From Xestospongia muta (taxonomy: Eukaryota > Porifera > Demospongiae > Haplosclerida > Petrosiidae): DNA of 64,000 nucleotides. Location: NCBI GenBank assembly GCA_963693285.1, contig OY848918.1, positions 7,753,156-7,817,155 of the forward strand, read 5' to 3'. Of this stretch, positions 321-64,000 are shown one piece after another. The notes beneath the pieces are model-generated. The model was not told the DNA's origin. It searched no databases and saw only the letters and a program-made list of their open reading frames with translations. Numbering within the stretch: the first letter of the stretch is position 1; every line of letters begins with the position of its first letter. A program made the position numbers and the translations under genes.

Positions 321-364
321 GCGTAACCGATGGGTGTGGCCAACTGACAATCGAGTTATTTAAG
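321..364 (+). promoter_or_regulatory. Conserved A/M-family promoter block, A1 copy
   Basis: It holds the motif GCGTAACCGATGGGTGTGG (321-339) followed by a TATA-like TATTTAAG at 357-364, about 80 bp before the A1 start codon. The same block precedes A2, A3, M1, M2, M4 and M5, inverted for the M genes, with similar spacing. That points to a shared core promoter. Function is inferred from conservation and position. Confidence 0.6.
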
Positions 365-443
365 TCTCTCCACTTTTGCTTAAATAGACTACTAAATACA
401 TTCCATTATCATTATTCAATATATTAACGACGGCGATCACTAC

Positions 444-1284
444 ATGATGATCAAAGCAAGTCTACTACTTTTACTTTTAATAGGTATAGATCTATTCATA
501 ACCGTTTATGTTCATAATAAGCCTACTTTTTATTTCTACAGAGCAAATTTCATCTGAAGTGATATTTCCATGTTAAAATATTTGTCTACAAGATGATGTA
601 GTATATACCTGTACTGGTATTTGAGCTAACCTGATAACATGGACTGTTCCTAACTTAATGGCTGGAACTGCACAGCTACAAATTCTTCAACACATACTAC
701 ATGATACTATTGGTCCATTTACTGCACAGTTTGTATCATATCAGAACAATAACATAATATCTACACTGTCTTTTAATGTTACTACTGTACTACATAATAA
801 AGACATAGTGTGTGAGGCTACTGGAGGTTATAGTAAAACGTGTAACATTATGATTACAGGTAGGATACTTCAATGAAGTGTACTATTGTTACTATGTCCT
901 GTACATAGGTAAACCCACAGTTCCATTAAATGTCAATGTTGTAGCTACTACTCCTCATACAGTAGTTGTTACATGGACATCACCAGTTACTGGTAGTCAA
1001 TGTATAGATCTTTATATTGTAACTGTGTTCAATGAAACACACAATACTATGACATCAGTTAATACAACAAATAATATCACATCTCTCACAATATATGGAC
1101 TAGTAAAAGGAAATAACTACTCATTTACTGTTAAAGGTATTGATCATATTGGTCAGATTGGAAATAGTAGTCAGTTAGAGTATCTCATATTTGATGGTAA
1201 GCAAATATCTCCTGATTTGCAAAATGAAGGCTATTTCTGTTATAAAACATGTTAAAAAAGGTTGTTGTATACATGGTTTGCTAC

Positions 1285-1328
<44 letters not shown>

Positions 1329-3738
1329 GTAGCAAATCATACAACAACCTTTTTTGATTTATAGCGTGCATTTTCCCTGAATATAATTTACTAAATTATA
1401 TATATCTCAGCTGAAAAAACAATTATTAGATAACTTAATACAAAATTTAGCAAATATCCATTTAAAAATGAATAGCTTACATATAACTGTTTTGACAGAA
1501 GTTGTCTCTTATTGCAAATCAGGTCATAAATAATGTATCCAAGTAGAATGCTTTAAGTAAAACTGCTACCAGTTCCACAGAATGTTGTTAACCTTAGCTA
1601 TACTTTTGATAAAGCAAATATTGCTTATGTGATGTAGATGGTAAGCTCAATATATAAACTAAATAAATATGTACTTTACTTCACATAGCCTCCTCCCTTT
1701 TCTCTAAGACCTCCAGTCAAATACTATCATATCTATCATAACCTCACATCATCTGATGGCAGTATAATACATAATATTACTAACAATATAACACAACTCA
1801 CTTTTAATAGTATTAGTTATAGTAACAAGTATAGTGTGACTGTAACAGCTGAAAATGTGATAGGAGAAGGACCAGGAGTTAACATTGAAGGTATGTGGAG
1901 ACATCATAAATAAAGCTGATTACTTCAATTTTATTTACTAATACTTCCTTCAATTTTATCTGTACATTTCTTTTTAATAGTCACTGGGACAACTGGTTAG
2001 TAATCCTAAATCCTGATGGAAATAATTTCTTTTATATTTATATTTCATAGCTGAATGGTTTATTGTCAAGTTCACTTCAAATGTCTCAAGGCAATAATAT
2101 TGTAATTGGGTATAATAAAATATTAATAGATGATTTTAGATATGTTCACATTAAATCATACAAATACAACATTAACATTCAGTTCAAATACAAATTTACA
2201 TTAACTGAAGATTGTCTTGTGACATGGTTTATGCAAAGAGACCACTTCCATTAAACATCTTGAAAACACACAGTTGTTGTGTACACAACCATACATTTTT
2301 CAATGGATGTTTACTAAGTTATATCTCAGTTTTAAAAAAATAGATAACTTGAATGCAAAATTTAGTAAACATTCTATTTAAAAATTGCTTCCAGAGATGC
2401 AAGTGTTTTTTAATGGTTGTATTAATATGGTCTCTTATTGCAAATCAGGCTACATATACAGGTAGTTCATATAATAGCCAAATTACTTCTACTGAAAGTA
2501 TTCTTGTGATCACATCAGAGATTAGTCATTATTACATATTTAAATAAACCAATATAGTTACATCTGATATAACAAATATGACTGTGACACCTCTTACTAC
2601 AATCTTGCCTGACAGAATTCGAATCTTGCACCTGTTATTGGTGGAGTATGTGGAGCTGCTATTGTAACTGCTTCTTTTTTAATATTTCTTATATTGTTAG
2701 GAATTGTAATTTGTAAAAACAGTAAGTGCATCATTTGTTAAATTAAAATGATTGATTTATCTACCATTTTTTGCAGAATTATCAAGAAATGATGCAGCAT
2801 CAACGTATAATAAAAATAATTTGAATATTTCTGAATCCACTAAACAAAGAAACTTTATTGAGGTATATTATACATATATTATAAATTAACAAGTGACTAG
2901 AAATTTGATTGGTTTCAGTTGTCATATATCACTTTTGTATGTTCCTTTTTTATTTCAGTTAACTCCAGATCCTACCTATGCTGAAATTAAGAAGACGCAG
3001 CCTCCAGCTCTACAATATGATGAAGTTCTTCCTCCTGCAGCTGTGCATCCTAATTCAATTGATGATGACCAACCTCCTATACCACTGTTTCATATTGAGG
3101 ATGAACCTTCTTTGTCTCCTAATGAACCTGTTATTGCACAATACTCTGTAATTATGAGAGAGCACATGACATCTCATGTATCACCTCATAATATAATAGC
3201 TGAAGGAGATGATTCTGCTAATTCTGTGTCAAAGAGAGAAGAAATAAAAGTAATTAAACAATTCTCATCACTTAATTTATTATGTTGTTACTGTAGGAGA
3301 GTAAAGAAAACCGTCATTTACAGAAAACTAAAGGTGTTGATGTTTCTGTAACTTTAAATGAAGTATGAGACAACTCTACCTCCCATTATTTTAGAATTTA
3401 TATTTATCATATTATTAGTCAAACAATCCAATTGGAGCTGATAGAGGAGTTGGAGCAATAACATATGCTGAACTAGGTCCTGCTCCTAAGAACGGGCCAA
3501 TAATACCTCCTTCATCAGATATTGGACAGTCTGTTGTCTATTCTGATATAAAGGTATTAACTGTACCTAAAAAGGTATCGCACAATTCATTAATGTTATC
3601 ATAAATTTCACTTCTTGCTTTTTTCATGAACAGAAGCTATCCACAAGAGGTCTTATGATACAAACTCAGCTAGGAGATCTGGAAATACCTCCACCTCTAC
3701 CTCCTAAACTAGTACAAATGGAAATGGACACTAAATGA
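444..3738 (+). pseudogene. A1: Ig/FN3 receptor with ITIM-like tail, broken ectodomain
   Basis: Exons seen: signal peptide 444-483 (MMIKASLLLLLLI), Ig 542-859, FN3-1 909-1196, FN3-2 split as 1573-1640 and 1689-1890, a 15-nt micro-exon 1981-1995, TM 2616-2721, and tail exons 2777-2862, 2959-3249, 3297-3362, 3419-3553 and 3634-3738. The ectodomain has three in-frame stops: taa at 574-576 and tga at 622-624 in the Ig exon, and tag in 1573-1640 where relatives have Trp. TM and tail exons stay open. The tail carries TYAEI, LQYDEV, AQYSVI, ITYAEL and VVYSDI; several match the ITIM pattern (I/V/L/S)xYxx(I/V/L). It ends in proline-rich sequence. Exons between 2000 and 2615 are unresolved. A3 is the closer-to-intact paralogue. 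The start is chosen from the conserved signal exon and the promoter 80 bp upstream. Confidence 0.75.
1254..1355. repeat. Fold-back element with (TA)n centre
   Basis: Two inverted arms of roughly 35 bp (1254-1289 and 1322-1355) flank a TA run. The left arm begins aaaaaaggttgttgta and the right arm ends tacaacaaccttttt. It lies in the A1 intron between FN3-1 and FN3-2. The A2 copy of this intron (about 42975-43041) keeps the left arm and TA run but not the right arm. Consistent with a small palindromic MITE or a TA expansion inside an older palindrome. Confidence 0.7.
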
Positions 3739-6326: not shown

Positions 6327-8171
6327 ATGTTTCAAAGGCTGATAGTACTGACTATTCTGGTATTTGTAAACTCTCAAGGTTAGTAAATAACAAATTAGTC
6401 ATTGATTTGTTTATGTTATTATATTTACCCAGTTATCCTACAACAAACATCCTCCACATGATCTTCTGTATGCCCTGAATGTGGTCCTAACTTGTATTGT
6501 GACTGGTACTACAATGTAATCAATAAATAATACCAATTCAGCAACATATAGTATAACATCAACTCCTGGTTCTACTGCTACTGTTAGTAATTTTACTGTT
6601 GTCTTTGTGAGCAGTGTGTCAAATGTCATTAAATCTGAAGCAAGATTTCACAATGTATCATCTCTTCATAATGGTAGTAGTATTATTTGTAACGATGTTA
6701 TTATGGATATAAGTCTCCAGATTGAGGTTGTAGTTTCTGGTAAGTATTTGAATATTACGATTACATAATTTCACAATATGATTATATGATATTATACACA
6801 ATATTGCATTCTCTTTTGTCAATTCATTATCTCTCATGTTACTCTGGTCAGTATCACTGGAGAGTAGACACTGTCATATTACTATTATTTGTTGTCTTTG
6901 TTGTTTAGGATGAAATATATTATATTTTTAGATACTTTTTACAATTTAGCCTCCTTTCTGCTCTTGTCCTCCTCTCTTGTACTAAAACGTTGATCAATAG
7001 TCTTAGTACTGGTAGTAATATCACCAGTATTAATGTACCTACTGGTCTCTCTCAGTCAGTAGAGTATCAGTACAGAGTAGTAGGGTCTGATATTATCAAT
7101 AGATTAGGATACTATAGTCAATATACAATGTTCACTTTGGATGGTAAGAATTAAAATATTTTAATCTATCAACTATGCCTCATTAGTTCTACAGGCTGTA
7201 CCACTAATAACTTATAATATTACAAAGAGAACAGAGAACTACACTATTGTTGTAATTTGGGAGGTGAGTATTATTTTTTTGTTTAGAATAACTGAATCTA
7301 GTTTTCATTTAGTCTCCCCCTCTTTCTTTTCGTCCTCCTCTCTTATACTATAAAGTCTATCACAACATATCAGGTTCACTAACTGTTAATATAACTACTG
7401 TTACTAACATTACATTGACTGGAGTACTAGCTGGATATACCTACATTATAACAGTGGTACCAGTTAATATACTAGGAGAGGGATACCCTAATAAGACTAT
7501 AGGTTATTTATATATTATTATAAAGTGTGTTATATTTACTTCTCATACAGTTATCATTCCTAAAAAACTAATAATCACTAGTGTTATAATAACATCATTT
7601 AATGAAAGTAATCAATGTATTATTATTAGTAAATGTACTTATACTACTTTTCCCTATTATTGCAGTCATTCCAACAAGTGTTTCGTTATATATTAGTAAG
7701 TATAAATATCACATTATTGTATACATTTTATGATAAGTATAGAAACGACAAGTTTATTGTCAACTACAACAAGTACATCTTCTCTTAACTAGTATATGTC
7801 CTATGCTTCTTTGATAGTCCTACAATGACTATAACCTTAACTGTTTGTCCAAGTAAGTCAGTTAGCAATAAAAACTAAATTTCCATTACTATAGCTATTG
7901 AAAAACAAGTATCATGTTTATCAGGTAATAACACAAACACATGACATTACTGAAATGTTTTCTTAACAGTGAGTATACCAGTCAGTATGTTCCTATCTTC
8001 TCTATTAACTGCTGTTATTACTACACTTATTGTCTATCTCATTACAAGGAGGAGGAGCTATAACAAAGACACTCCACTACACAATTAAGTCCAATATATA
8101 ATGATGTTACGTTACAAGAGTCCTCAGAACACAAAGAGATATTGGAAAAACTATTTATGTATATAATAATT
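6327..8171 (+). pseudogene. B1: Ig/FN3 receptor pseudogene with chimeric FN3 exon
   Basis: Signal exon 6327-6378 (MFQRLIVLTILVFVNSQ), Ig 6433-6739, FN3-1 6950-7143, FN3-2 7187-7263 and 7313-7502, small stalk exons between 7550 and 7960, TM/tail from 7970. Lesions: tga at 6459-6461, a frameshift just after the first Ig cysteine pair region and a taa (both shared with B2), and a deletion in the tail that brings taa at 8086-8088 before the tyrosine motifs. The FN3-1 exon begins like a second-FN3 exon and continues as the C-terminal half of an FN3-1 exon. The FN3-2 exon is almost the same as in D1/D2. The TM reads SIPVSMFLSSLLTAVITTLI. Confidence 0.7.
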
Positions 8172-8379: not shown

Positions 8380-10516
8380 ATGAACATCAATTCTTATTGT
8401 CTATTTCTCCTTTTGAAATATGTTGTTGTCACATGTATGTAAGTTATCAATGTTAGTTTTCTATTTTAAATGATAATGTTTATTGTAGTATCATTTACAA
8501 ATCTTAATCAAACATCTCCATTATATTCTCCTGTATATGTTGGAGATACTGTAGTATTCACTTGTATTGCTAGTGATACTGGATCTGCTGTATAGAGAAG
8601 AGATAAAGGAATACCACATGTTTTAGACAGTGTAACACTGTCACTAGTAGTTGATAGCTTTACAGTAAGTGTTATAGAGATAAATGGTACAACAGTAGTA
8701 TCTACTGCTACTGTTCAAACTGTCACATTACAATTAAATGGAGCTAGTATTAGTTGTTCTGCTAATTTACAAGGTTCATACATTACACAGTCAATAAATA
8801 CAGCAGGTAACTTTAGCTTAGCTGTATTAGTAACATATCATCTACTTACTTTACAGATCCAACAGATATAGTCAATAATGTCACTATTATACCTGTTAGT
8901 AGTACATCAGCTATATTGAGTTGGTCTCCAGGATATTACTGTGTAGTGAACTATACTGTCACTGTACTCAGTAGTACTGACAATACAGATCAATATAATA
9001 CAAGTGATAATACTACATCAATTGTTATAAACTTTATAACAGAGTACAATATTCATTTATTGTTATTGCAAGAGACAATGTTGGAAGAGTAGGACCTCCT
9101 AGTCAGTTATTAAACTAAACTTGGGATGGTAAGATAAAATAAACAAGTTTGTATTATATAATGTTATCTTTTATTAAAGTACCATCATTACAAGTTACAA
9201 ACATCACTTTGTTTCCAATTTCAAATAATGTTACTGAACTAATTTGGATAGTAAGATAATTTTAAAATAATAGTACTAACTAAATATCTCATTTCTATTT
9301 ACAGACACTAGTTGACATATCTCGTCCTCCTATTCTATATTATATTGTGACAAATCTATTGACCAATACAGTTATTAATACTACTAATACCAGTGTTATT
9401 ATTACTGGACTAACTCCTGGTCATTATTACAATATTAATATCACAGCTGTTAATATCATTGTACTTGGTCCAGTACTTATGATAAATGGTAAGTTAATAT
9501 AATATTGTACAGATATAGATCAATAAAATTCCTTATATAGTTACAATACCACTGATAGTGACAAGTTCTTTATCAGGTCAGTACACAATATTCTGTATTT
9601 TATTTCAATAAATATTTTATATTGATCTTATAACTTCAACACAGTATTAATTAGTATTGGTTGTTATGGTTAATATATTTGTGTCTACTATGTTAATTAC
9701 TTGGAATTTAATCAATAATTTTTAATTACACAATTATGAAATATAAAATTGATTACATAACTAATTGTTTATTTATTTCAGGTGCTACTAGTAACTCAAT
9801 ATACAGTACTGTTATATCTACATTATCAACAACTGATACTACTTGTGTGAGTACCACATGTACAGGTACGTTAAATATAAAAGTAGAAAACATTACTAAT
9901 GAAGATGATGAACAATTATCTAAATTAAATCATCATGTTCAGAGACATCCCATATTAATAGTCCTAGCAACAGCCATATATGTTAACAATATGACCAAAA
10001 TCTACCTATTATTGTAGTTATAAATTAAATTCTATCTACTACCACAGTAATACCTACAATATCAGCTACACCTACTGTAATAAGTCCCCTACAGATAGAC
10101 CTAGTAGTGGTAAGTTATATATTACTACTGTTGTGTAGTACCTCTCTTATATCTAGTACTAAGTGATGGAGTTATTGCTGGTATTATTATTAGTATTGTT
10201 ATCTTACTAGTACTAATAATAATTGTTATCTTAACTATTGTCTTGATATATAAAGGTCAGTACTATATAGTATTGAGTTGTACTATTACCGCTGTATGTG
10301 TGTGTGTCCTACTAGTGTCCAGTACTAAACAGAGTAGAGGTGAGAGTAGTCCAATGATAAAAGAGTTCTTCTCAGAAAAAAATGAAGCCTATGGTATAAT
10401 TAAAGGACCAAATCATCCATCAGTCACCAATTGAAGTAACAGAGAATGTAGTATATAGTACAATGGAACAACAACCATCACTTAATACTCCTCCAGTTTA
10501 TGAGACAATAAATTAA
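8380..10516 (+). pseudogene. C1: Ig/FN3 receptor pseudogene
   Basis: Same exon plan as C2: signal 8380-8434, Ig 8489-8806, FN3-1 8857-9128, FN3-2 9180-9250 and 9305-9488, stalk 9541-9576, 9782-9865 and 10048-10109, TM 10157-10255, tail from 10316. Lesions against C2/C3: tag at 8593-8595 replacing the Ig core Trp, loss of the first Ig Cys (VYVGD for VCLGD), a 1-bp deletion near 9043 in FN3-1, a 1-bp deletion in a C run of exon 10048-10109, and a tail frameshift giving tga at 10432-10434. The downstream tail sequence up to 10516 is still recognisable (STMEQQPSLNTPPVYET in the old frame). It is the dead counterpart of C2 in the duplicated cassette. Confidence 0.8.
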
Positions 10517-10828: not shown

Positions 10829-11168
10829 CCTGCTGTTATTACTACATTTATTGTCTATCTCATTATGAGAAGGAGGAGCTATAATAAAGACACTCCACCT
10901 ACTACTACTACCCAATTAGGTCCAATATATGATGATGTTAAGTTACCAGAGACCTCAGAATAGAAAGAGATCATTGAATTACAAGGAAATACTGCTTATG
11001 GATATATTGATTAAGAACATGTGTTAACTTTATTATATTATAATAATAATTTATTGTAGGAGCTACAATAAAGACACTTCACACAACACTACTACCCAAT
11101 TAGGTCCAGAGCACAAAAAGAGATTATTAAAGTACATGGAAATACTATTTATGGATGTATTAATTAAG
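10829..11168 (+). pseudogene. Two orphan B-type TM/tail exon fragments in tandem
   Basis: Fragment 1 (10829-11013) encodes the end of the B TM segment, the basic RRRSYNKDTPP stretch, YDDVKLPETSE, then a stop in place of Gln, then the NTAYGYI motif. Fragment 2 (about 11059-11168) is a shorter copy of the same tail. No signal, Ig or FN3 exons are attached. They are probably leftovers of a deleted B gene or of repeated unequal exchange. Confidence 0.65.
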
Positions 11169-11709: not shown

Positions 11710-11843
11710 TGAACTGTTTACAATTAAGAGAGCTTTATTGAACACTATAAAACACTTGCGATAATGTTGTTAATAATGTTTATCTTTTATCACAATCAAG
11801 TTTGTATCAAGTTTTGGTATCAGTTTACATTTTATGTTTATTT

Positions 11844-13916
11844 ATTTGTTCATATGCAGTGTTTATCTGTAATTCAATAGCTTGTTGGTGTGGAAGAGGC
11901 AGATCATAAATTATGTCAGACTCTTCTTGAGAGGTTGCCTCAGTTTTTCCAGCTTTTTTCTTGCTACAATGTAGGCAGTACTATGTCAGGTTCTTCTTGA
12001 GAGGTGGATTTGGTTTTTTGGCTTTTTTTTGTTACAATGCAGACAGTGATACTAATAATTAAAGCAGTGATGATAGCTCTGAGAAATACAGTAATTGGTA
12101 CAGCAATATACACTGTAAAAGAAAACAATGTGATATTGTCTATTATAATTTAATACAGTTCTTACAACTATGTAACATCTAGTCACATTCTTGATATGTT
12201 GTGAAAGTACTCATTGTACATAAATGACAGCTACATTGTTGGTAGCATGAGTCATTTAAATTGGAGATTGTGGTTGTAATTAATAAACATTTCATTATAT
12301 TACAAACAAAATAATCAAATACATACTTATATCAAGTTGTTCCATTATGTTGTCTAGACATGTTGACACTACTTCATCAACTGTAAAATAGTTCATATAA
12401 TTATAATAATACTGACATTGATACTTATTACCAGATGTCAAAGTACCATCAATAGAATCATATGAGGTGACTAAAGTACAAGGTAAAAATACTTTAATAA
12501 TATGAAATACTACAGTTATAGTAAAGTAATAAGTACTTAATATAAATATCTGCAATTTCTGTCTATGGTTTTAACCTTTCACTTCTTCATAGAAAGATAA
12601 TTGTATGGTTAATGGTTAAAAAAATAAAAATTAGATATTAATGAAACAACAAATCCCTTTAGTTCAAAATTTGTATTATCATTGTTTGTATTTGTGGTAA
12701 CTGACCTACATGATAGCTTTCCACAGTTGTTAATGAAAGTAAAATAACTATTAACAAGGAAACATATTATTACTATCATATGCTTGCCTCCATATACCTT
12801 CAATGTTAACTCCTGGTCCTTGATCTACCACATTTTCAGCTGTTACAGTCACACTATACTTGTTACCATAACTAATACCATTAAAAGTGAGTTATGTCAT
12901 ATTGTTAGTAATATTATGTAATATACTGCCATCAGATGATGTGAGGTTATGATAGATATAGTAATGTATGACTGGAGGTCTCAGAGAAGAGAGAGAAGGC
13001 TAAAAGAATTAATATAAACATATAAACATTACTAAACTAATACTCTAACTACTTACCTTCCACTGAATTGTAAGAGTAGTCTGTAGGTCAGCAGAGTAGG
13101 TAAGATTTATAACAAGTTCTGGGACTATCAATAACTAACTTGTCATGTATAAACATTCTATATTTGTTTACCATCAAATATGAGATACACTAACTGACTA
13201 CTATTTCCGATCTGACCAACATGATCAATACCTTTAACAAAAAATAAGTAGTTATTTCCTTTTACTAGTCCATATATTGTGAGAGATGTTATATTATTTG
13301 TTGTATTAACTGATGTCATAGTATTGTGTGTTTCATTGAACACAGTTACAATATAATGATCAATACATTGACTACCAGTAACTGGTGATGTCCATGTAAC
13401 AACTACTGTATGAGGAGTAGTAACTACAACACTGAGGTTCAATGGAGCTGTTGCTTCATCTACACAAATAAATTATAAAGTAACAGCATATTTTGTTGTT
13501 ATATCTTAACAATAATCATAATGTTACATGTTTTAATACTACCTCCAGCTGCCTTACAGACTATGTCTTTATTATGTAGTACAGTGGTAGCAGTAAATGA
13601 CAGTGTAGATATTATGTTATTGTTCTGATATGATACAAACTGTGCAGTAAATGGACCACTAGTATCATGTAGTATATGTTGAAGAATTTGTAGCTGTTCA
13701 GTTCCACCCATTAAGTTAGGAACAGTCCATGTTATCAGGTTAGATCCAATACCAGTACAAGTATATACCACATTATCTTGTAGACAGATATTTTGACATG
13801 GAAAGATCACTTCATGATCAGATAGACATGGCTCTGTAGAAATAAAAAGTAGGCTCGTTATAAAAAATGGTTATTAATATATTTATACCTAGTAGTAATC
13901 TGGCTATAATCATCAT
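11844..13916 (-). pseudogene. M1: Ig/FN3/ITSM-type receptor pseudogene
   Basis: Read right to left: signal exon 13916-13889, shortened to MMIIARLLL; Ig 13833-13510; FN3-1 13459-13172; FN3-2 13124-13057 and 12999-12798; linker 12747-12706; stalk exons about 12560-12180; TM/tail from 12112. Lesions: the Ig exon donor is ttaag where relatives have gtaag; TAA at 12894-12892 in FN3-2; stop and lost acceptor in the Cys stalk exon (tag for Trp); stop TAG at 11966-11964 in the tail. The tail is partly duplicated in tandem, and the second copy (to 11844), which holds the terminal tyrosine motif, is out of frame. Close paralogue of M4. Confidence 0.8.
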
Positions 13917-23487: not shown

Positions 23488-23962
23488 AAGCTTATAAATA
23501 TAACAAATAAGCATTTGTGATATCATCACAATCTTTATTCTATTAGAAGAACAACTTGTCTAGTTCATTGCACTGTGAATACTTGTTCTCCTTTGTTCCT
23601 TATTATGAATATATTGTTTTTAATTGAGTAAATAAAATTGGATATACAAAATCAGGAAGTTATCTTATTAAAATTAAAAACAATAATGTATCACTCGATG
23701 TTGCACATGTTTTGCATACAGATGAAGATATATAGTCTAATTGGTTGTTTGGTAGTTTGTCTTGTATAAACAATTAGTATCATTGTGTTTATTATCGTCA
23801 TGTTCTTAAATATAACTTTATACTATTAAAGTATTTAAACTATTTACAATTAAGACAGTTTTATTGAACACTATAAAATACTTATGATGATGTTGTTAAT
23901 AATTTTTATCATTTCTCACAATAACATTTGTATCAAGTTTTGGTATCAGTTTACATTATATT

Positions 23963-42164: not shown

Positions 42165-43006
42165 ATGATGTTCATAGCAAGATTACTACTTCTACTTTTA
42201 ATAGGTATAGATTTATTTTAACCGTTTATATATGTTCGTAATATAAACCAACTTTTATTCTACAGAGCAATATCTTTCTGAAGTAATTTTTCCATGTCAA
42301 GATATCTGTCTATAAAATAATGTAGTATATACTTGTACTGGTATTGGAGCTAACCTGATAACATGGACTGTTCCTAACTTAATGGGTGAAACTGAACAGC
42401 TACAAATTCTTCAACACATACTACATGATACTAGTGGTCCATTTACTGCACAGTTTGTATCATATCAGAACAATAACATAATATCTACACTGTCTCTTAC
42501 TGCTACTATTGTACTACATAATAAAGATATAGTGTGTGATACTGGAGGTAGTAGTAAGACATGTAACATTATGATTATTGGTAAGATACAACAACATATA
42601 CTATTATTTTATAATTTATTTGTGTAGATAAAGCAACATCTCCATTAAACCTCAGAGTTGTAGCTACTACTCCTCATACAGTAGTTGTAACATGGACATT
42701 ACCAGTTACTGGTAGTCAATGTATTGATCATTATATTGTAACTGTGTTCAATGAAACACACAATACTATGACATCAGTTAATACAACAAATAATATCACA
42801 TCTCTCATAATATATGGACTAGTAAAAGGCAATAACTACTCATTTACTGTTAAAGGTATTGATCATGTTGGTCAGATTGGAAATAATAGTCAGTTAGTGT
42901 ATCTCACATTTGATGGTAAGGAAATATCCCCTGATTTGCAAAAAGGAATGCTATATTTCTGTTATAAAACATGTTAAAAAAGGTTGTTGTATACATTATT
43001 TGCTAC

Positions 43007-49209: not shown

Positions 49210-51036
49210 ATGTTTCAAAGACTGTTAGTACTGACTATTCTGGTATTTGTAAACTCTCAAGGTTAGTAAATAACACGTTAGTCATTGAGTTGTTTATGTT
49301 ATTATATTTACCCAGTTATCCTACATCAAACATCCTCCTTATGCTCTCCTGTATGCCCTGAATGTGGTGCTAACTTGTATTGTGACTGGTACTACAATGT
49401 AATCAATAAATAATACCAATTCAGTAACATATAGTGTAACATCAACTCCTGGTACTACTGCTACTGTTGGTAATTTTACTGTGGTCTTTGTGAACAGTGT
49501 GTCAAATGTCATTAAATCTGAAGCAAGATTTCACGATGTATCATCTCATCATAATGGTAGTAGTATTATTTGTAATAATGTTATTATGGATATAAGTCTC
49601 CAGATTGAGGTTGTAGTTTCTGGTATGTATTTGAATAGTACAAAAACACAATATAATTATATGACATTATACACAGGTATTTCCTCATAATATTACATTC
49701 TCTCCTCTCAATTCATCATCTCTCACTGGTCAGTACACTGTCATATTACTATTATTTTATTGTTGTTTAGGATGACGTGTATTATATTTTTAGACACTTT
49801 TCATAATTTACCCTCCTTTCTGCCCTTGTCCTCCTCTCTTGTACTACAAAGTCTATCACAACATATCAGGTTCATTAACTGTTAATATAACTACTGTTAC
49901 ATACTAACATTACATTGACTGGAATACTAGCTGGATATACCTACATTATAATAGTGGTACCAGTTAATATACTAGGAGATGGGTACCCTAATAAGACTAT
50001 AGGTTATTTAAATATTATAAAGTGCGTTATGTTACTTCTCATACAGTCATCATTCCTAAATAACAAATAATCACTAGTGTTGTAACAACTTCATTTAATG
50101 AAAGTACTCAATGTATTATTTATTAATAAATGTACTTACTACTTTTCCTAATTATTTTAGTCATCACAACAAGTATTTCATTAAATAGAAGTAAGTACAT
50201 ATATCTATTATTGTACATATTTTGTGATAAGTGTAGAAACTACAAGTTCATCGATGATATTGTCAATTCCAACAAGTACTAAGTCTTTTTATTCAACTGG
50301 TAGGTTCTATGTAGCCAGTTTGACTAAATCATTACTTATTTATTACTAAGAATAAATATCAATGAATGTATATAGTTTGTGATATCTATAGAAACTACAA
50401 GTTTATCGCCAACTACAACAAATACAATATCTTCTCTTAACTGGTATATGTCCTATGTAGTCTGTTTGATAAATGTCTAGTTATCAGTTTCACAGATAAT
50501 GTTTTCAATTTTTGATTAGTCCTACAATGATTGTAACTTTAACTGTTTGTCCAAGTAAGTCAAAAATAAAATGCTATAGTACACCTATGTTTTCATTACA
50601 GCTAATAAAAGCCAGCAAACATCATACTTATTGTACATGTCCAAGTAAGTTATAGTCAAAAGTGTAAGTGTACAATTATATTTCCATTATAGCTAATGAA
50701 AAACAACAAACATCATGTTTATCAGGTAATAAAGCAAACACGTTACATTAATGAATTATTTACTTAACAGTGAGTATACCAGTCAGTATGTTCCTCTCTT
50801 CTCTATTAACTGCTGTTATTACTACACTTATTGTCTATTTAATTATGAGAAGGAGGAGCCACAATAAAGACACTCCACCCACTACTACTACCCAATTAGG
50901 CCCAAAATATGATGATGTTAAGTTATTAGAGACCTCAGAACAGAAAGAGGTCATTGAATTACAAGGAAATACTGCTTATAGATATATTAATTTGAACTTC
51001 TTAGTTCAACACACTATTTGTCACATACAGTATTAA
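49210..51036 (+). pseudogene. B2: Ig/FN3 receptor pseudogene with intact TM/tail
   Basis: Signal 49210-49261 (MFQRLLVLTILVFVNSQ), Ig 49316-49622 with the same frameshift and taa as B1, then only the second-half FN3-2 exon (about 49809-50000), which has lost its acceptor AG and gained about 4 bp near 49899. FN3-1 and the first half of FN3-2 are absent. TM/tail 50771-51036 is open: SIPVSMFLSSLLTAVI, RRRSHNKDTPP, KYDDVKL, IELQGNTAYRYI, and a read-through extension because the usual stop after YIN has become a Leu codon. NTAYRYI fits TxYxxI. The preserved tail of a broken gene parallels A1. Confidence 0.75.
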
Positions 51037-51235: not shown

Positions 51236-53532
51236 ATGAACATCAATTCTTATTGTCTATTTCTCCTTTTGAAATGTGTTATTGTCAAATGTATGTAAGT
51301 TACCAATGTTAGTTTTCTATTTTAAATGATCATCTTATTGTAGTATCATTTACAAGTCTCAATCAAACATCTCCATTATATTCTCCTGTGTGTCTTGGAG
51401 ATACTGTAGTATTCACTTGTATTGCTAGTGGTACTGGATCTGCTGTATGGAGAGGAGATAAAGGAACAGTTCGTACTTTATACAGTGGTGTACTGTCTCA
51501 GGTTGTTGATAGCTTTACAGTAAGTGTTATAGAAATAAATGTTACAACAGTAGTATCTAATGCCACTGTTCAAACTGTCACATTACAATTAAATGGAGCT
51601 AGTATTAGTTGTTCTGCTAATTTACAAGGTCCATACATTACACAGTCAATAAATATAGCAGGTAACTTTAGCTTAGCGTTATTTAGTAACATATCATCTA
51701 CTTACTTTACAGATCCACCAGATATAGTCAATAATGTGACTATTATACCTGTTAGTAGTACATCAGCTATATTGAGTTGGTCTCCAGGATATTACTGTGT
51801 AGTGAACTATACTGTCACTGTACTCAGTAGTACTAACAATACAGATCAATATAATACAAGTGATAATACTACATCAATTGTTATAAATTTTATAACAGGA
51901 GTACAATATTCATTTATTGTTATTGCAAGAGACAATGTTGGAAGAGTAGGACCTCCTAGTCAGTTATTAAACTATACTTGGGATGGTGAGATAAATAAAC
52001 AAATATGTATTATATATTGTTATCTTATATTAAAGTACCATCATTACAAGTTACAAACGTCACTTTGTTTCCAATTTCAAATGATGTTATTGAACTAATT
52101 TGGATAGTAAGATAATTTTTGTACTAACTTAATATCTCATTCCTATTTACAGACACTAGTTGACATATCTCGTCCTCCTGTACTATATTATATTGTGACA
52201 AATCCAATGACCAATACAGTTATTAATACTACTAATACCAGTGTTATTATTACTAGACTAACTCCTGGTCAATATTACAATATTAATATCACAGCTATTA
52301 ATATCATTGGACATGGTCCAGTACTTACAATAAATGGTGAGTTACATATAATATTGTACTGACATAGGTTGATAAAATTCCTTATAGTTACAATACCACT
52401 AACAGTAACAAGTTCTTCATCAGGTATGTACACAACATTTCATTTCAATAAATATTCTTCATTGATCTTATAAACCAAACACTTAGAATTTATTTAGGTA
52501 TTTAATTTATTTGTGTCTATTATGTTAATTACTTGAAATTTAATCAATAATTACTAAATTATACAAAATATAAAATTGAATACATAATTTTGTATTTATT
52601 TCAGGTACTACTAGTAACTCAATATACAGTACTGTTATGTCTACATTATCAACAACTGATACTACTTGTGTGAGTACCGCATGTACAGGTATGTTAAATA
52701 TAAAAGTAGAAAACATTACTAACAAAAATGGTACAGCTATAATTGTTACATCTTAATATGTTTCTTGAAAGCAAGATACAACATATACACAATTGTGTTA
52801 AAATTATGTAAAACTAAGAGGCTTTATATACCAAATGTTTTCTGTCAAAATAAATACTTTCATTTCTAAAGCTCTCAAAATGTACTTGCAAAAGCGGATA
52901 CTTCATTTTTATTGTTACTGACATAATTGTCAACGAGATTTTAGTTTTTCAATTGAAATGTCATTATCAGGAGCATTTCTATAGATCCTACATGTTAACT
53001 ATAAGACCCAACACCTATTAGTATAGATATAAATTAAATACTATCTACTAATACTGTAGTCCCTACAGTATCAGCTACACCTGCCATAACAAGTCTCCCT
53101 ACAGATAGACCTAGTAGTGGTAAGTTATATATTACTACTATTGTGTAGCAACTCTCGTATGTCTAGTATTAAGTGATGGAGTTATTGTTGGTATTATTAT
53201 TAGTATTGTTATCTTACTAGTACTAATAATAATTGTTATTTTAACTATTGTAGTAATCTTGATAAATAAAGGTCAGTACTATATAGTAGTGAGTTGTACT
53301 ATTACCACTGTATGTGTGTGTGTGTGTCCTACTAGTGTCCAGTACTAAACAAAGTAGAGGTGAGACTAGTCCAGTGATAAAAGAGTTCTTCTCAAAAAAA
53401 AATGAAGCCTATGGTATAATTAAAGGATCAGATGATCAGTCACCAATTGAAGTAACAGAGAATGTAGCATATAGTACAATGGAACAACAACCATCACTTA
53501 ATACTCCTCCAGTTTATGAGACAATAAATTAA
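51236..53532 (+). CDS. C2: Ig/FN3 receptor, intact
   Basis: Exons: signal 51236-51290 (MNINSYCLFLLLKCVIV), Ig 51344-51661, FN3-1 51713-51985, FN3-2 52036-52106 and 52153-52336, stalk 52388-52423, 52605-52688 and 53060-53119, TM 53167-53271, tail 53336-53532. The sum is 1383 nt, 460 residues, with no stops and consistent phases. The Ig domain has SPVCLGDTVVFTC, VWRGD and SISC. FN3-1 has ILSWSPGYYCVVNYTV. The stalk is Ser/Thr-rich (STLSTTDTTCVST), suggesting O-glycosylation. The TM has VGIIISIVILLVLIIIV. Tail motifs: NEAYGII, NVAYSTM, PPVYETI. YSTM and YETI are spaced 11 apart, ITAM-like but with Met in the first motif; YxxM is also the PI3K SH2 type. It is the live copy of C1. Ligand unknown. 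Confidence 0.85.
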
Positions 53533-54063: not shown

Positions 54064-54295
54064 AGTGAGTATACCAGTAAGTATGTTCCTCTTTTCTCTA
54101 TTAACTGCTGTTATTATTACACTTATTGTCTACCTCAATATGAGGAGGAGGAGTTATAATGATGATACTCCATCCGCTACTACTACCCAATTAGGTCCAA
54201 TATATGATGACACATGATGTTAAGTTACCAGAGACCTCAGAACAGAAACAGATCATTGAATTACAATGAAATACTGCTTATGGATATATTAATTA
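54064..54295 (+). pseudogene. Orphan B-type TM/tail exon
   Basis: SIPVSMFLFSLLTAVI-like TM, RRRSYNDD, then a small insertion near 54215 breaks the frame before KLPETSEQK and the TAYGYI end. Its acceptor has been altered (aaaag for aacag). It lies between C2 and C3, where a B gene would sit if each C gene once had a B neighbour. Confidence 0.7.
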
Positions 54296-54584: not shown

Positions 54585-56679
54585 ATGAACATCAATTCTT
54601 ATTGTCTATTCTTCCTTTTGAAATGTGTTGTTGTCACATGTATGTAAGTTACCAATGTTAGTTTTCTTTTTTAAGTGATCATTTTATTGTAGTATCTTTT
54701 ACAAGTCTTAATCAAACATCTCCATTATATTCTCCTGTGTGTCTTGGAGATACTATAGTATTCACTTGTATTGCTATTGGTATTGCTAGATCTGCTGTAT
54801 GGAGAGGAAATAAAGGAACAATACGTGTTTTAGACAGTGTAACACATTCTGGTGTTGTCGATAACTTTACAATAAATCTTACAGAAATAATTGGTGATAC
54901 AGTAGTTTCTACTGCTACTGTTCAGACAGTCACATTATCATTAAATGGATCTAGTATTAGTTGTGGCAATGGAATAAATTCATCTTTAATGGAGCAGGTT
55001 GTAATTTCAGGTTAGTGAGCCAGTTTATAAAGAAATTAACCAAAACAATATTACAGGTCCACCAGATATAGTCAATAATGTGACTATTATACCTGTTAGT
55101 AGTACATCAGCTATATTGAGTTGGTCTCCAGGATATTACTGTGTAGTGAACTATACTGTCACTGTACTCAGTACTACTAACAATACAGATCAATATAATA
55201 AAAGTGATAATACTACATCAATTGTTACAAACTTTATAACAGGAGTACAATATTCATTTATTGTTATTGCAAGAGACAATGTTGGAAGACTAGGACCTCC
55301 TAGTCAGTTATTAGACTATACTTGGGATGGTAAGATAAAATAAACAAGTTTGTATTATATAATCTTATCTTTTATTAAAGTACCATCATTACAAGTTACA
55401 AACGTCACTTTGTTTCCAATTTCAAATGATGTTATTGAACTAATTTGGATAGTAAGATGATTTCAGTACTAACTAAATATCTCATTCCTATTCACAGACA
55501 CTAGTTGACATATCTCGTCCTCCTATTCTATATTATATTTTAACAAAACCATTGACCAATACAGTTATTAATACTACTAATACCAATGTTATTATTACTG
55601 GACTAACACCTGGTCAATATTACAATATTAATATCACAGCTGTTAATATCATTGGACCTGGTCCAGTACTTATGATAAATGGTAAGTTAATATAATATTA
55701 TAGGTCAATAAAATTCCTTATATAGTTACAATAGCAACAAGTTCTTTATCAGGTCAGTACACAATATTTTATTTCAATAAATATTTATCCATTGATCTTA
55801 TAATTTCAACATAGTATTAATAGTTAGTTACTATATTTGTGTCAACTATCTTAATTACATGGAATTTAATCAATAATTTTTAAATTACACAAATACAAAA
55901 TATAAAATTGATTACATAATTAATTGTTTATTTATTTCAGGTACTACTAGTAACTCAATATACAATACTGTTATATCTACATTATCAACAACTGATACTA
56001 CTTGTGTGACTACCTCATGTACAGGTATGTTAAATATAAGAGTAGAAAACATTACTAATGAAGATGAGGGACAATTATCTAAATTAAATCATCATATTCA
56101 GAGACATCCCTATATTGGTAGTGCTAACAACAGTCTTATATGTTAACAATATGACCAGAACCTACCTATTAATATAGTCATAAATTAAATTCTATCTACT
56201 ACCACAGTAATTCCTACATTATCATCTACACCTACTGTAACAAGTCCCCCTACAGATAGACCTAGTAGGGGTAAGTTATATATTACTACTGTTGTGTAGT
56301 ATCTCTCTTAAATCTAGTACTAAGTGATGGAGTTATTGCTGGTATTATTAGTAGTATTGTTATCTTACTAGTACTAATAGTAATTGTTATTTTAACTATT
56401 GTAGTAATCTTGATATATAAAGGTCAGTACTATATAGTATTGAGTTGTACTATTACCACTGTATGCTTGTGTGTCCTACTAGTGTCCAGTACTAAACAGA
56501 GTAGAGGTGAGAGCAATCCAGTTATAAAAGAGTTCTTCTCAGAAAAAAATGAAGCTTATGGTATAATTAAAGGATCAGATGATCAGTCACCAATTGAAGT
56601 AACAGAGAATGTAGTATATAGTACAATGGAACAACAACCATCACTTAATACTCCTCCAGTTTATGAGACAATACATTAA
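54585..56679 (+). CDS. C3: Ig/FN3 receptor, intact
   Basis: Exons: signal 54585-54639 (MNINSYCLFFLLKCVVV), Ig 54693-55010, FN3-1 55057-55329, FN3-2 55381-55451 and 55498-55681, stalk 55726-55752, 55941-56024 and 56208-56270, TM 56318-56422, tail 56483-56679. The sum is 1377 nt, 458 residues. FN3-1 and the tail are almost the same as C2, while the Ig domain differs more: the N-terminal strand is conserved, but from VWRGNKG onward many changes and a different C-terminal strand (SLMEQVVIS) appear. Tail: NEAYGII, NVVYSTM, PPVYETIH. The concentration of difference in the Ig exon suits a ligand-binding domain under diversifying pressure, which is inference from two copies. Confidence 0.85.
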
Positions 56680-57006: not shown

Positions 57007-59304
57007 ATGAAGGACTATACTGTAGCATTAGTTTATATTCTTGTCCTTGTTATAGGTGAGTTGATGTTGTAATCATAATATTAATGTAATATATTACTTT
57101 ATAGTCAAGATAGAAGCTTCAGTTACAAGTCTAGACTGTAATCATGGAGTATGTCCACAGACACAAGGAGCAGTCACTTGTACAATAACAGGTAGTCTAG
57201 CAGCTTGGTATTCTCCTCCATCAGATTCCATTGCTACAGTAAGTTCTGGACAAGTTACTAATGTTGGTGGTTCTGGGTTTGTAGCTGCTCTTGTGAGCAT
57301 TAACAATCCTGGAATAACAACTAATTTAAGTTTTACTGCTACTACTGATAAGAATGGAACACAAGTCAGGTGTGTTGATGTACTAGATACAAGCTCAATG
57401 ACTTGTACTATTATGATATCAGGTATGTCACTAACAGTATCATATATAACTAACATGCACTATCATTATAAGGTCCTCCAAGTGATGCTCCTACAGAACT
57501 GGGTTTTGCAGCTCTCACAAACACTTCAGTCACTCTCTACTGGTCACCTCCTACTCTTCATCCTAACTGTATAGTTAACTACACTGTTGAGATCAGGACA
57601 ACCAGTGATAATATATTGATCAGTACTCTCAGTACTGGTAGTAATATAACCAGTATTAATGTATCTACTGGTCTCTCTCAGTCAGTAGAGTATCAGTACA
57701 GAGTAGTAGGGTCTGATATTATCAATAGATTAGGACCCTATAGTCAATATATTATGTTCACTCTGGATGGTAAGAAATAAATTTTTAACCTCTTGAGTAG
57801 TGCCAATTTTTAGTTCTACAGGCTGTACCACTAATCACTTATAATATCACAAAGAATACAGAGAACTACACTATCATTCTTAATTGGGAGGTATATATTA
57901 TATTTTATAATTTTGTTACTCTAGTTTCCTTTAGTCACCTCCTCTTTCCTCTCGTCCTCCTCTCTTATACTACAAAGTCTATCACAACATATCAGGTTCA
58001 CTAACTGTTAATATAACTACTGTTACTAACATTACATTGACTGGAGTACTAGCTGGATATACCTACATTATAACAGTGGTGGCAGTTAATATATTAGGAG
58101 ATGGATACCCTAATAAGACTATAGGTTATTTAAATATTATTATAAAGTGTGTTATGTTTACTTCTCATACAGTTATCATTCCTAAAGACCCAATAATATT
58201 CAGTTTGATAGTATCTTCACAATTCTATTGTAAGAATAGACAGTATATTACTCCTCAATTATATTATAAATTCACTAATTAGCATCATTAAAAATATCAA
58301 GTATCTCTACAACTGTAAACAATAAGACATCCAATATTAGTAAGTGCAATATTATGTATTATACATCTAATCAATATTGTTATCATATACTGAGTATAGT
58401 AATTACTAGTTCATTGAAGTATTTGTTAATAATTACATCTTTAGATTCAACTTGTATATACGTCATATAGAAGACTTCGTTAAATGATCAACTATCTATA
58501 TTGTAGATGCTGTTTTGAGTTCTTCTACATTGTTAACGTCTTCAACTGTTTATTCAAGTAAATTAATAGTAAAGTTATAATAAAATTAATTTCCAATATA
58601 GCTAATGAAATCCAACTGGCCTCGTTTTTAACAGGTAATAAACAAATATGTTACATAATGTACCAACTACAGGTCCAGACCATTCCTACATAGTCTATGC
58701 TATAGGTATACTGCTTAATTGATACTTCGACTATTTGAGGTATAATATTATCTCCTAGTCTGGACCATCCTTACATAGGCAGTGCTATATATATACTGCC
58801 TGGTTGATATGTTAATTTTTTATAGGATCCATGCCTACTATCACATTTGTACCTTCAGTATCAGCTACAGATAGACCTCACAGTACTAGAGGTAGGGATA
58901 TATATTATTACCACTATTGTTCACTATTTCTCTTATGTCTAGTATTAAGTGATGGCGTTATTGCTGGTATTATTAGTAGTATTGTTATCTTACTAGTACT
59001 AATAATAATTGTTATTTTAACTATTGTAGTAATCTTGATATATAAAGGTAGGTACTATATAGTGGTGAGTTGTACTATTACCACTGTATGTGTGTGTGTC
59101 CTACTAGTGTCCAGTACTAAACAGAGTAGAAGTGAGAGTAGTCCAGTGATAAAAGAGTTCTTCTCAGAAAAAAATGAAGCCTATGGTATAATTAAAGGAT
59201 CAAATGATCAGTCACCAATTGAAGTAACAGAGAATGTAGCATATAGTACAATGAAACAACAACCATCACTTAATACTCCTCCAGTTTATGACACAATAAC
59301 CTAA
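57007..59304 (+). CDS. D1: Ig/FN3 receptor, intact
   Basis: Exons: signal 57007-57055 (MKDYTVALVYILVLVI), Ig 57105-57422, FN3-1 57473-57769, FN3-2 57814-57890 and 57935-58124, stalk 58173-58229, 58283-58339, 58507-58557, 58602-58634 and 58826-58891, TM 58943-59047, tail 59108-59304. The sum is 1497 nt, 498 residues, all phases consistent. The Ig domain has Cys in CNHGVCPQTQ and GAVTC, AAWYSPP and VRCVD, with an extra Cys pair likely. FN3-1: VTLYWSPPTLHPNCIV. FN3-2 (LTGVLAGYTYIITVV) is nearly the same as in B1. The five-exon Ser/Thr-rich stalk is longer than in C. TM and tail are almost identical to C2/C3: NEAYGII, NVAYSTM, PPVYDTI. An open, 60-nt intron between TM and tail could be retained in frame. 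Confidence 0.85.
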
Positions 59305-59620: not shown

Positions 59621-62046
59621 ATGGAGGAGTATACTGTAGCAATACTTTGCATTCTCATCCTTATCATAGGTGAGTTGATGTTGTAATTATAATATTAAAT
59701 ATAATAAATTGGTTTATAGTCAAGACAGAAGCTTCAGTAACAAGCCTAGATTGCAGTCATGGACTATGTCCACAGACACAAGGAGCAGTCACTTGTACAA
59801 TAACAGCCAGTGTAGCAGCTTGGTATTCTCCTCCATCAGATAGTACTCCCGTTGCTACAGTAAGTTCTGGACAAGTTAGTAATATTGATAATACTGGCTT
59901 TACTGCTGCTTTTGTGAGCAATATTTCTGGACTAACAACTAACTTAAGTTTTACTGCCACTACTGATAAGAATGGAACACAAGTCAGGTGTGTTGATGTG
60001 ATAGATACAAACTCAATGACTTGTACTATTATGGTATCAGGTATGTCACTAACAGTATCATATATAACTAACATGTAATATCATTATAAGGTCCTCCAAA
60101 TGATGCTCCTACAGGACTGGGTTTTACAGCTCTCACAAACACTTCAGTCACTCTCTACTGGTCACCTCCTACTCTTCATCCTAACTGTATAGTTAACTAC
60201 ACTGTTGAGATCAGGACAACCAGTGATAATATATTGATCAGTAGTCTTAGTACTGGTAGTAATATCAGCAGTATTAATGTATCTACTGGTCTCTCTCAGT
60301 CAGTAGAGTATGAGTACAGAGTAGTAGGGTCTGATGCTGTTAATAGAGTAGGACCCTATAGTCAATACACTATGTTCACTCTGGATGGTAAGAATTAAAA
60401 TATTTTAGCCTTTTAAACAGTGTTACTTTAGTTCTACAGGCTGTGCCACTAATCACGTATAATATTACAAAGAATTCAGAGAACTATATCCTTGCTGTGA
60501 TTTGGGAGGTAAATATTGTTCATATCATAACTGAATCTAGTTTTCATTTAGTCTCCTCCCCTCTCCTCTCGTCCTCCTCTCTTGTACTATAAAATCTATC
60601 ACAACATATCAGGTTCACTAACTGTTAATATAACTACTGTTACTAATATTACATTGACTGGAGTACTAGCTGGATATACCTACATTATAACAGTGGTACC
60701 AGTTAATATACTAGGAGATGGATACCCTAATAAGACTATAGGTTATTTAAATATTATTATAAAATGTATTATGTTTACTTCTCATACAGTTATCATTCCT
60801 AAAGAGCCAACAACATCTAGTTTAATAGTATCTTCTGAATTTTATAGTAAGAATAGACAGTATAATCCTCAATCATAATGTTAAATAATTATAAATTAGT
60901 ATCAGCAAGAATATCCAGTACTTCTACAACTGTAAACAATGAGACATCAAATATTAGTAAGTACAATATTATGTTGTCATACATCTAATATTGTTATCGT
61001 ATGCTAACTATAGCAACTACTAGTTCAGTGAAATTTTTGTCATACAACTACTTGACTTGTATTTATGTCATATATACTATTTAATTAATTGATTAGTTAC
61101 CTATTATTGTAGATACTGTTTTGAGTTCTTCTGCATTGCTATTGTCTTCAACTGTTTGTTCAAGTAAATTAATAGTAAAGTTATAAGAAAATTAATTTTT
61201 ATTACAGCTAACGAAAACCAACAAACCTCATGTTTAACAGGTAATATACAATATATTACATAATGTAGCATCTAATATCACTATGTCATCTTGTTTATAT
61301 TCTTTGTACAATGGACTAATGTTAGCCATTCCTCCTTCTTATCTGATTTTGTTATGACTTCTAATTAATTAGAGAAGACTATTTATATAATATTTCTAAA
61401 ACTCCTACATCAGTCATTATTATATCTTGTTATAGAAAAGAGTATATGATGTTAGGAGGTTTGTTCAATATTTGTTGAGGTATAATATTATCTCCTAGTC
61501 TGGACCATCCTTACATAGGTAGTGCTATATATATACTGCCTGGTTGATATGTTAATTTTATATAGGATCCATGCCTACTATCACATTTGTGCCTTCAGTA
61601 TCAGCTACAGATAGACCTCACAGTACCAGAGGTAAGGATATATATTATTACCACTATTGTTCACTATTTCTCTTATGCCTAGTACTAAGTGATGGAGTTA
61701 TTGCTGGTATTATTAGTAGTATTGTTATCTTACTAGTACTAATATTAATTGTTATTTTAACTATTGTAGTAATCTTGATATATAAAGGTCAGTACTATAT
61801 AGTAGTGAGTTGTACTATTACCACTGTATATGTGTGTGTGTCCTACTAGTGTCCAGTACTAAACAGAGTAGAGGTGAGACTAGTCCAGTGATAAAAGAGT
61901 TCTTCTCAGAAAAAAATGAAGCCTATGGTATAACTAAAGGACCAGACGATCAGTCACCAATTGAAGTAACAGAGAATGTAGCATATAGTACAATGGAACA
62001 ACAACCATCACTTAATACTCCTCCAGTTTATGAGACAATAAATTAA
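59621..62046 (+). CDS. D2: Ig/FN3 receptor, intact
   Basis: Exons: signal 59621-59669 (MEEYTVAILCILILII), Ig 59720-60040, FN3-1 60091-60387, FN3-2 60432-60508 and 60552-60741, stalk 60790-60846, 60900-60956, 61113-61163, 61208-61240 and 61566-61631, TM 61683-61787, tail 61850-62046. The sum is 1500 nt, 499 residues. It is a tandem copy of D1; differences cluster in the middle of the Ig exon (around 59840-59930) and in the stalk. Tail: NEAYGIT, NVAYSTM, PPVYETI. The TM-tail intron is 62 nt, so retention would shift the frame, unlike D1. Confidence 0.85.
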
Positions 62047-62529: not shown

Positions 62530-62911
62530 CTTCATAAATGTATATATATGTATGTATATATGTGTGTGTTTGTGTGTGTGTGTTTTCATTTTACATTATA
62601 TTAACTCCAGTACCAGTAAAAGCTACCAGTATAAGTGCTGGTACTTTCAAGATTGTCATTACATACATAAACCTCATTAATAATAGTAAAATATCAAATG
62701 GTGCATTATTAATTTTTATGACACATAACTAGACAGACATAAATGAACAAATCAACAGTATATATTGCTATTTAATACATCATTTCATACATACACACAT
62801 ACATACATACACACATACATACATACATACATACATACATACATACATGCATACATACATACATACATACATACATACATACATACATACATACATACAT
62901 ACATACATACA

Positions 62912-62945
<34 letters not shown>

Positions 62946-63210
62946 CATACATACATATATATGTGTGTGTGTGTGTGTGTGTTTTCAGTTTACATTATAT
63001 TAACTGCAGTACCAGTAAAAGCACAATACAATTACTCTAATAGTATACGTAGCTAGAACATGTATAGTACTGGCAAATGCATCTGCTGGCTACCAGTACA
63101 AGTGCTGGTACTTTCAAGATTGTCATTAAATAGTAAATACATAAAACAAATTAATAATAGTATGGTATCATATGGTGCATTATTCATTATTATGAAGAAT
63201 GCACCATTAT
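62530..63210. repeat. Direct repeats flanking a CATA microsatellite
   Basis: About 62530-62735 and 62955-63210 share tgtgtgtgtgttttca, ttacattatattaact, agtgctggtactttcaag and atggtgcattatt in the same order. Between them, about 62786-62960, is a long CATA tract with few interruptions. The TYIHTYIH frames over it are artefacts. The element contains tRNA-free, ORF-free sequence, with a small hairpin around taccagtataagtgctggta. Confidence 0.75.
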
Positions 63211-63304
63211 ACATTGCTATTTAATATATCTATGTTGAAGGTGGAGAGACCTTCCTTTCTCCTCCCACTTCATCATTCTACTTTATTAAAACATTTCAGA
63301 GACT

Positions 63305-64000
63305 ATGTTCTTATTAATTCAGTTTATCATTATTGTTGCTACTCTTCAAGATTTATCCTTAAGTAGGTCATGTTCATTGTGATGACTTTGTAATCAATTG
63401 TTTATTGGATCCTTAGGTCTTCTCTATCAAAGTTCTCCATCTTATTCTCTTGTATGTCCTGGAGATAATGTGGTCTTTACTTGTATCACAAACACTGGAC
63501 TTGTCTCATGGACAGATAATTCTGATGGAACTGGAGCCCTAGGATACAATAGTGCTAATGCAATAGGACAACCACCAAGACAATTAGGAATATTTAAAAT
63601 TGCTCTCATTAGTGTTAATGGAAGCATGTTTGTATCAACAGCTACAGTATATAATGTAACATACAGTCAGTCATCTACTAATATTTACTGTTCAGCAGAT
63701 GCTATGAACTACAATGACATGAATACACTAACTGTGAGAGGTAAGTTATGATCATAAAATACTAGTAATTTATTGACTGTGAGAGGTACGTTACGATCAT
63801 AAAACGTGTTTTTATTTGTTGTCTGTGATCAGACCTAGATCCAGTTGGTTCACCAATTGGATTATCAGCAGTATCACTTGATAAAAGTCAAGTCCAACTG
63901 TCGTGGTCTCCACCATCTGGTCACTTTATCTGTATTACTAAATACACTATCAGAGCTATTAGTGATACTACAGGAGATCAAACAGCTAATACTAGTGGAA
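63305..64000 (+). CDS. E: Ig/FN3 receptor, 5' part only
   Basis: Signal exon 63305-63362 (MFLLIQFIIIVATLQ), Ig 63417-63740, first FN3 exon from 63833 and open to the window end. The Ig domain has SLVCPGDNVVFTC, VSWTD and NIYCSAD. FN3 has VQLSWSPPSGHFIC, the same WSPP...C arrangement as C and D. It starts a further subfamily distinct from C and D at the sequence level. The donor region of the Ig exon is duplicated (gtgagaggta at 63733 and again at 63779). The TM and tail lie outside the window, so the tail class is unknown. The donor within the signal exon was chosen as gtaggt because it gives phase 1. Confidence 0.75.

Follow-up and report, generated by a model that had tools for sequence, protein, structure and literature searches.

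We analyzed a 64-kb stretch of chromosome 2 of the sponge Xestospongia muta (C2 7753156-7817155, hereafter the window), which carries a dense cluster of receptor genes and pseudogenes. Using hidden Markov model (HMM) exon maps and a purpose-written spliced aligner, with exon families derived from stop-to-stop frames and clustering, we counted 18 receptor units (G1 to G18, the last crossing the right edge), together with fragments that hold Ig alone and two orphan tails (Table 1). The full build of a unit is a signal exon, one immunoglobulin (Ig)-like domain, two fibronectin type III (FN3) domains, a stalk, a transmembrane (TM) segment and a tyrosine tail. The original prediction, made from the letters alone, had recognized this cluster and its repeated gene build, and its three blocks could be mapped as strand blocks (+ at 0.4-11 kb, - at 11.8-40.2 kb, + at 42.2-64 kb); its estimate of about 13 genes and pseudogenes was too low. 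An open spliced frame was obtained for seven units (G5, G8, G10, G14, G15, G16, G17), those of G14 and G15 depending on a phase-2 splice of the signal exon chosen by hand. Stops, frameshifts or lost exons affect 11 of the 18 units, in fair agreement with the expectation that roughly half would be broken. Splicing of G17 by hand gave a 482-aa product from 11 exons, in the order signal, Ig-like, FN3-1, split FN3-2, four stalk exons, TM and tail, and all ten introns have GT/AG ends. Contamination was set aside because the window lies in a contig of 22 Mb, and bacterial origin because of the introns and the FN3/TM build.

Table 1. Receptor units and G17 exons, in window positions (ectodomain types A to D; tail classes TA, TA2, TA3, TB and TD)
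Feature	Positions	Strand	Description	Basis
G1	444..3249	+	A-type ectodomain with TA2 tail; broken by 3 in-frame stops	spliced alignment
G2	6523..8147	+	Ig remnant, FN3, TA3 tail; broken	exon map, spliced alignment
G3	8380..10513	+	C-type ectodomain, TD tail; broken by stops/frameshifts	spliced alignment
Orphan tail	10829..11008	+	TA3; broken	exon map
G4	11823..13916	-	A-type, TA tail; broken	spliced alignment
G5	17480..19502	-	A-type, TA tail; frame intact after splicing, 378 aa	spliced alignment
G6	20537..23516	-	A-type ectodomain, 3' portion decayed; broken	spliced alignment
G7	23949..25755	-	A-type, TA tail, FN3-1 partly missing; broken	spliced alignment
G8	30314..32351	-	A-type, TA tail; open frame, last C-terminal residues unlike G5	spliced alignment
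G9	36000..37442	-	B-type FN3s, TB tail, Ig exon not found; broken	exon map, spliced alignment
G10	38262..40192	-	B-type Ig and FN3s, TB tail; open frame, model without signal exon	spliced alignment
G11	42165..42917	+	A-type Ig and FN3-1 only; one stop	exon map, spliced alignment
G12	44114..46544	+	A-type, TA2 tail; frame broken in signal and FN3-2a exons	spliced alignment
G13	49406..50988	+	Ig/FN3 remnants, TA3 tail; broken	exon map, spliced alignment
G14	51236..53529	+	C-type, TD tail; open frame given phase-2 signal splice	spliced alignment
Orphan tail	54065..54214	+	TA3	exon map
G15	54585..56676	+	C-type, TD tail; open frame given phase-2 signal splice	spliced alignment
G16	57007..59298	+	D-type, TD tail; intact frame	spliced alignment
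G17	59621..62046	+	D-type, TD tail; intact, 482 aa, 11 exons	hand splicing, spliced alignment
G17 Ig-like exon	59720..60040	+	D-type	hand splicing
G17 FN3-1 exon	60091..60387	+		hand splicing; G16 homologue in Pfam scan
G17 FN3-2	60432..60741	+	two exons (60432-60508, 60552-60741)	hand splicing
G17 TM exon	61683..61787	+		hand splicing
G17 tail exon	61850..62046	+	motifs YGIT, YSTM, YETI	hand splicing, motif count
G18	63413..64000	+	C-like Ig and FN3-1 start; runs to ~65257 with TA3 tail, one stop past window; broken	exon map, spliced alignment

The identity of the FN3 domains is certain, and the repeated units go beyond what chance would give. Pfam fn3 matched three FN3-bearing frames of the window (E 1e-10, 3e-6 and 2e-5) and four spliced models (E 8e-21, 6e-16, 2e-12 and 3e-5), three of which passed the cut-off with two stretches each; the B-type model, at 24.8 of 25 bits, was 0.2 bits short. 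The HMM check suggested with the original prediction was thus positive for FN3 and negative for Ig: across 15 window Ig exons, no Pfam Ig model scored above its cut-off or better than E 0.02 (best E 0.021 for C2-set_2 and 0.071 for Ig_3), and the Ig-type scores shown in bits were 12.5 of 21 and 13.5 of 30. The exons are nevertheless probably Ig domains, judging by the predicted model of the C-type exon, which appears to resemble antibody and T-cell receptor V domains, and by the Ig superfamily core Cys(B)-Trp(C)-Cys(F), of which C25, W34 and C90 are invariant across 61 D-type rows (the exon of the window together with 60 of 116 ENA proteins). Against PDB sequences, the 60 of 135 matches listed for the mixed-type profile A1, from E 0.003, were Ig-bearing by molecule name, and the D-type profile found no Ig chain among its 11 matches. 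An AlphaFold2 model of the D-type Ig was of poor quality and was rejected, together with the meaningless Foldseek list that it produced.

The window is a small portion of the cluster. A search of the genome contigs (158.03 Mb in 28 contigs; the published assembly, as given in the available text of PMC12398682, has 158.52 Mb in 298 scaffolds, and the two extents are not identical) revealed that the cluster reaches far past the region covered by the original prediction, spanning 1.34 Mb (C2 7.37-8.71 Mb). All but two of the 150 scored matches to the D-type Ig exon (the best 150 of 260 candidates) fell within these limits, corresponding after merging of fragments to at least 142 exons or pieces, of which seven are distant (33-37% identity). 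By hand count, the A-type Ig had 55 long matches (≥128 bits) on C2 and 101 matches overall, and the best 15 of 46 C-type matches all lie on C2 7.37-7.88 Mb. Summed over the D, A and C types, the total is 212 Ig exons or pieces; many of them belong to broken genes, and the D-type share is a lower bound. The FN3 domain itself seems hugely expanded in the X. muta genome: a first look gave 2606 candidates, of which 150 were scored, and C1, C2, C5, C7, C9, C11 and C12 hold dense groups.

Five tail classes were found in the window, and not the seven variants reported earlier: TD (G3, G14-G17), TA (G4, G5, G7, G8), TB (G9, G10), TA2 (G1, G12) and TA3 (G2, G13, G18 and the two orphans), TA and TB being related to each other. 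The same ectodomain type precedes different tails. When each D-type Ig exon was assigned the nearest same-strand tail up to 5 kb downstream, the 142 exons were followed by TA2 (60), TA3 (57, or 50 when the seven distant exons were left out), TD (5) or none of these (20), at median distances of 1996 bp for TA2 (648-3123) and 1562 bp for TA3 (210-4010). By proximity, therefore, closely similar ectodomains carry differing tails, as is expected of paired receptors. Similarity to one TA2-linked reference Ig was alike in TA2 and TA3 genes (44 vs 37 exons, p 0.75, a value that is only a guide as the rows are related), and the two closest relatives of this reference (94 and 92%) bear TA3. The order of TA2 and TA3 along the chromosome was mildly clumped, with 45 runs vs 59.5 expected. 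Since similarity to the reference showed no difference between TA2 and TA3 genes and clumping was mild, either heads and tails recombined or heads were homogenized after an old tail split; the data fit both. The TD tail type also recurs at C2:0.44-0.56, C4:2.49-2.54, C7:3.28-3.54 and C12:3.50-3.52 Mb, where none of the 150 scored D-type Ig matches lie, suggesting that this tail module has spread wider than the D-type ectodomain.

The tails are rich in tyrosine motifs, for which the usual definitions of immunoreceptor tyrosine-based inhibitory (ITIM), switch (ITSM) and activation (ITAM) motifs were used. Strict ITIM-type motifs per tail, observed/shuffled, numbered 1.38/0.47 in TA2, 0.70/0.23 in TA3, 0.55/0.12 in TA and 0.06/0.17 in TD. 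The corresponding YxxPhi values were 4.00/1.46, 1.70/0.65, 0.82/0.45 and 2.62/0.51, exceeding the shuffled figure in each of the four tail classes for which motifs were counted. TD, with YxxPhi above and ITIMs below shuffles, thus carries tyrosine-based motifs and not ITIMs. Candidate ITIMs, recognized as sequence motifs, are LQYDEV and TQYSEV in TA2 and TAYGYI in TA3. TA2 tails contain a YAEV/YDEV pair, QYSEV and DYSVI; TA3/TA tails contain YDDV and the ITSM-like TAYGYI/TAYEHI.

Copies arise through segmental duplication, and many are dead. A 20.7-kb block (window 38128-58732) is repeated in tandem 67.4 kb downstream at 96.2% identity, with offsets and identity (83-96%) shifting block by block between the copies. 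Most other large repeated blocks are 80-95% alike, the larger ones inside the window 80-89%. The ratio of mean dN to mean dS, with codon bootstrap ranges, was 1.15 (0.77-1.79) for the D-type Ig, 0.41 (0.23-0.74) for the A-type Ig, 0.61 (0.37-1.04) and 0.63 (0.35-1.19) for FN3-1 of the D and A types, 0.49 (0.25-0.89) for FN3-2b (0.35 under other filters) and 0.79 (0.47-1.40) for the TD tail. Within the D-type Ig, predicted loops had dN 0.248 and dS 0.243, compared with 0.104 and 0.074 in the remainder; for dN and for dS alike, a difference this large arose in 2 of 2000 permutations, run on 16 sequences with one divergent copy excluded. With dN/dS near 1 and dS raised in the loops too, positive selection on the D-type Ig is not supported; the greater loop divergence of every kind fits exchange of segments between copies with a homogenized framework. 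Entropy over the 61 D-type rows was 1.62 in loops vs 0.75 elsewhere, placing D-type diversity in the predicted complementarity-determining region (CDR)-like loops, whose limits are rough, having been carried from the C-type model via a distant alignment. The G17 Ig exon alone matched 116 ENA proteins. Its closest relatives there were 83-88% identical vs 97% for SHP-2, in a database clustered at 90%, which suggests fast turnover of the receptor Ig. Full-length G17 had no relative at E 1e-3 among the best 7987 candidates scored; a control search with SHP-2 confirmed that sponge proteins are present in the same protein database.

Potential partners of such tails are encoded elsewhere in the genome, which has 76 SH2 matches. 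A single open frame at C5:8741001-8743000 is SHP-2 by sequence (best PDB E 1.1e-196) and has the signature HCSAGIGRTG; named sponge proteins were among its nearest relatives, supporting the sponge origin that had been supposed. Three SH2 pairs lie in a row with similar spacing at C3:11956173-11960808, and the one copy read is a single open frame with QCSNGVGRTG, where Q replaces H of the phosphatase signature. A further SHP-2-like copy, seemingly with introns, is found at C8:8077801-8079000. We infer that SHP-2-like proteins could bind the receptor tails. SH2 exons also occur in groups at C8:6531713-6583593 and C6:115219-237933, where open frames of 234-510 aa possibly represent amplified SH2 kinases.

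We consider it fairly probable that the chromosome 2 cluster is a family of type I membrane receptors, amplified in tandem and evolving by birth and death, that serves immune-type recognition and works like paired Ig superfamily (IgSF) receptors. The Ig tip would bind a surface partner via its variable CDR-like loops, engagement would let Src-family kinases phosphorylate the tail, and TA2 vs TA3/TA tails would recruit different SH2 proteins, SHP-2 among these, so that one recognition unit could yield different signals. The target may be self, kin or microbes, which the sequence fits alike. More tentatively, the roughly 200 V-like Ig copies, the CDR-like loop diversity and the exchangeable ITIM/ITAM-like tails coupled to SHP-2-like genes might together form a system of paired receptors that recognizes self/non-self or microbes, with segment exchange as its source of variation. 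Vertebrate paired receptors (LILR, SIRP, KIR, Siglec) likewise join one ectodomain type to different signalling tails with ITIM/ITSM-like motifs, in genomes with SHP-2. Some features set X. muta apart: no charged residue, of the kind that marks activating members of classical paired receptors, lies inside the hydrophobic TM stretch of the segments read by eye, a small part of the cluster, the FN3 domains are membrane-proximal, and tyrosines occur in all five tail classes.

The receptors of the Hydractinia Alr complex, also named in the original prediction, carry tyrosine motifs. They form a family of 41 clustered genes for IgSF membrane receptors with V-type Ig, according to the part of PMC11999971 available. 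The parallel with both systems stands for general architecture and fails for the Alr ectodomain, which is V-set plus I-set where X. muta has one Ig then two FN3; X. muta also has more Ig exons, many in broken copies, and joins differing tails to a single ectodomain type. Among sponge surface proteins, the Ig receptor tyrosine kinases and the aggregation factors are likewise tied to recognition, but no kinase or Calx-beta domain matched at E 0.01 in the four spliced X. muta models scanned. Large numbers of Ig-domain genes are already known from a sponge, Dysidea avara, as domain counts (V-set 564 or 594, I-set 637), and in the portion of that report available the expansion is described as such counts, with no mention of a cluster, an FN3 build, tails or their exchange (PMC12909245). 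A published, mapped sponge cluster with exchanged tails was not found in the literature searched, a weak absence given its sparse coverage of subscription papers.

Two other explanations are narrower forms of the reading that we favor. An innate repertoire sampling the bacterial community of the sponge is a realistic possibility, in line with a large repertoire of a single ectodomain type with CDR-like variability, with the several bacterial genomes assembled together with X. muta (PMC12398682, available text) and with an oyster receptor that recognizes bacteria through Ig domains and an ITAM (PMC11999971, likewise), even if the sequence holds nothing that separates microbe from kin recognition. 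We find it rather doubtful that alleles or gene content here decide graft fusion or rejection, as Alr does in Hydractinia. Clustered IgSF-like genes, V-like Ig, tyrosine tails, turnover, variable loops and the Alr parallel would all suit such a locus, but its two FN3 domains stand where Alr has tandem Ig domains, and very many similar copies would be expected of a repertoire more than of a locus with one or two histocompatibility determinants.

Explanations outside recognition appear unlikely. Ig-FN3 is a frequent build among adhesion proteins, and the units could be receptors for homotypic cell-cell adhesion whose multiplication is incidental. Sponge IgSF proteins are classed under adhesion in the accessible part of PMC11999971; however, three tails behind one ectodomain type and loop-centered diversity would be unusual for adhesion genes. 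It is similarly improbable that the region is mostly an unstable, neutrally amplified set of segmental duplications with few copies in use: the many broken units, the D-type dN/dS and the recent large duplications agree with this, but the constraint on the A-type Ig and FN3-2b and the excess of YxxPhi argue against it. We regard as very unlikely that some tandem repeats are two haplotypes placed end to end by the assembly. The 20.7-kb recurrence and far copies with identical scores (e.g., 8229130 and 8283528) would be expected from such an artefact, but not the lower identity of the larger blocks inside the window or the block-by-block variation between the 67-kb copies, and haplotypes leave two tails behind one ectodomain type unexplained.

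Which molecules underlie self/non-self recognition in sponges has been an open question for a long time. If the paired-receptor reading is true, an early-branching animal uses V-type Ig, signalling by tyrosine tails and SHP-2, and exchange of tails, and chromosome 2 7.37-8.75 Mb becomes an exact, testable interval in which graft fusion or symbiont recognition could be mapped. The cluster would then also be a natural example of how a single recognition head was rewired many times to different signals in one genome. Between the receptor units, the window also holds a dispersed repeat (~34243-34890), parts of it inverted, with copies on C1, C2, C4, C7 and C9.

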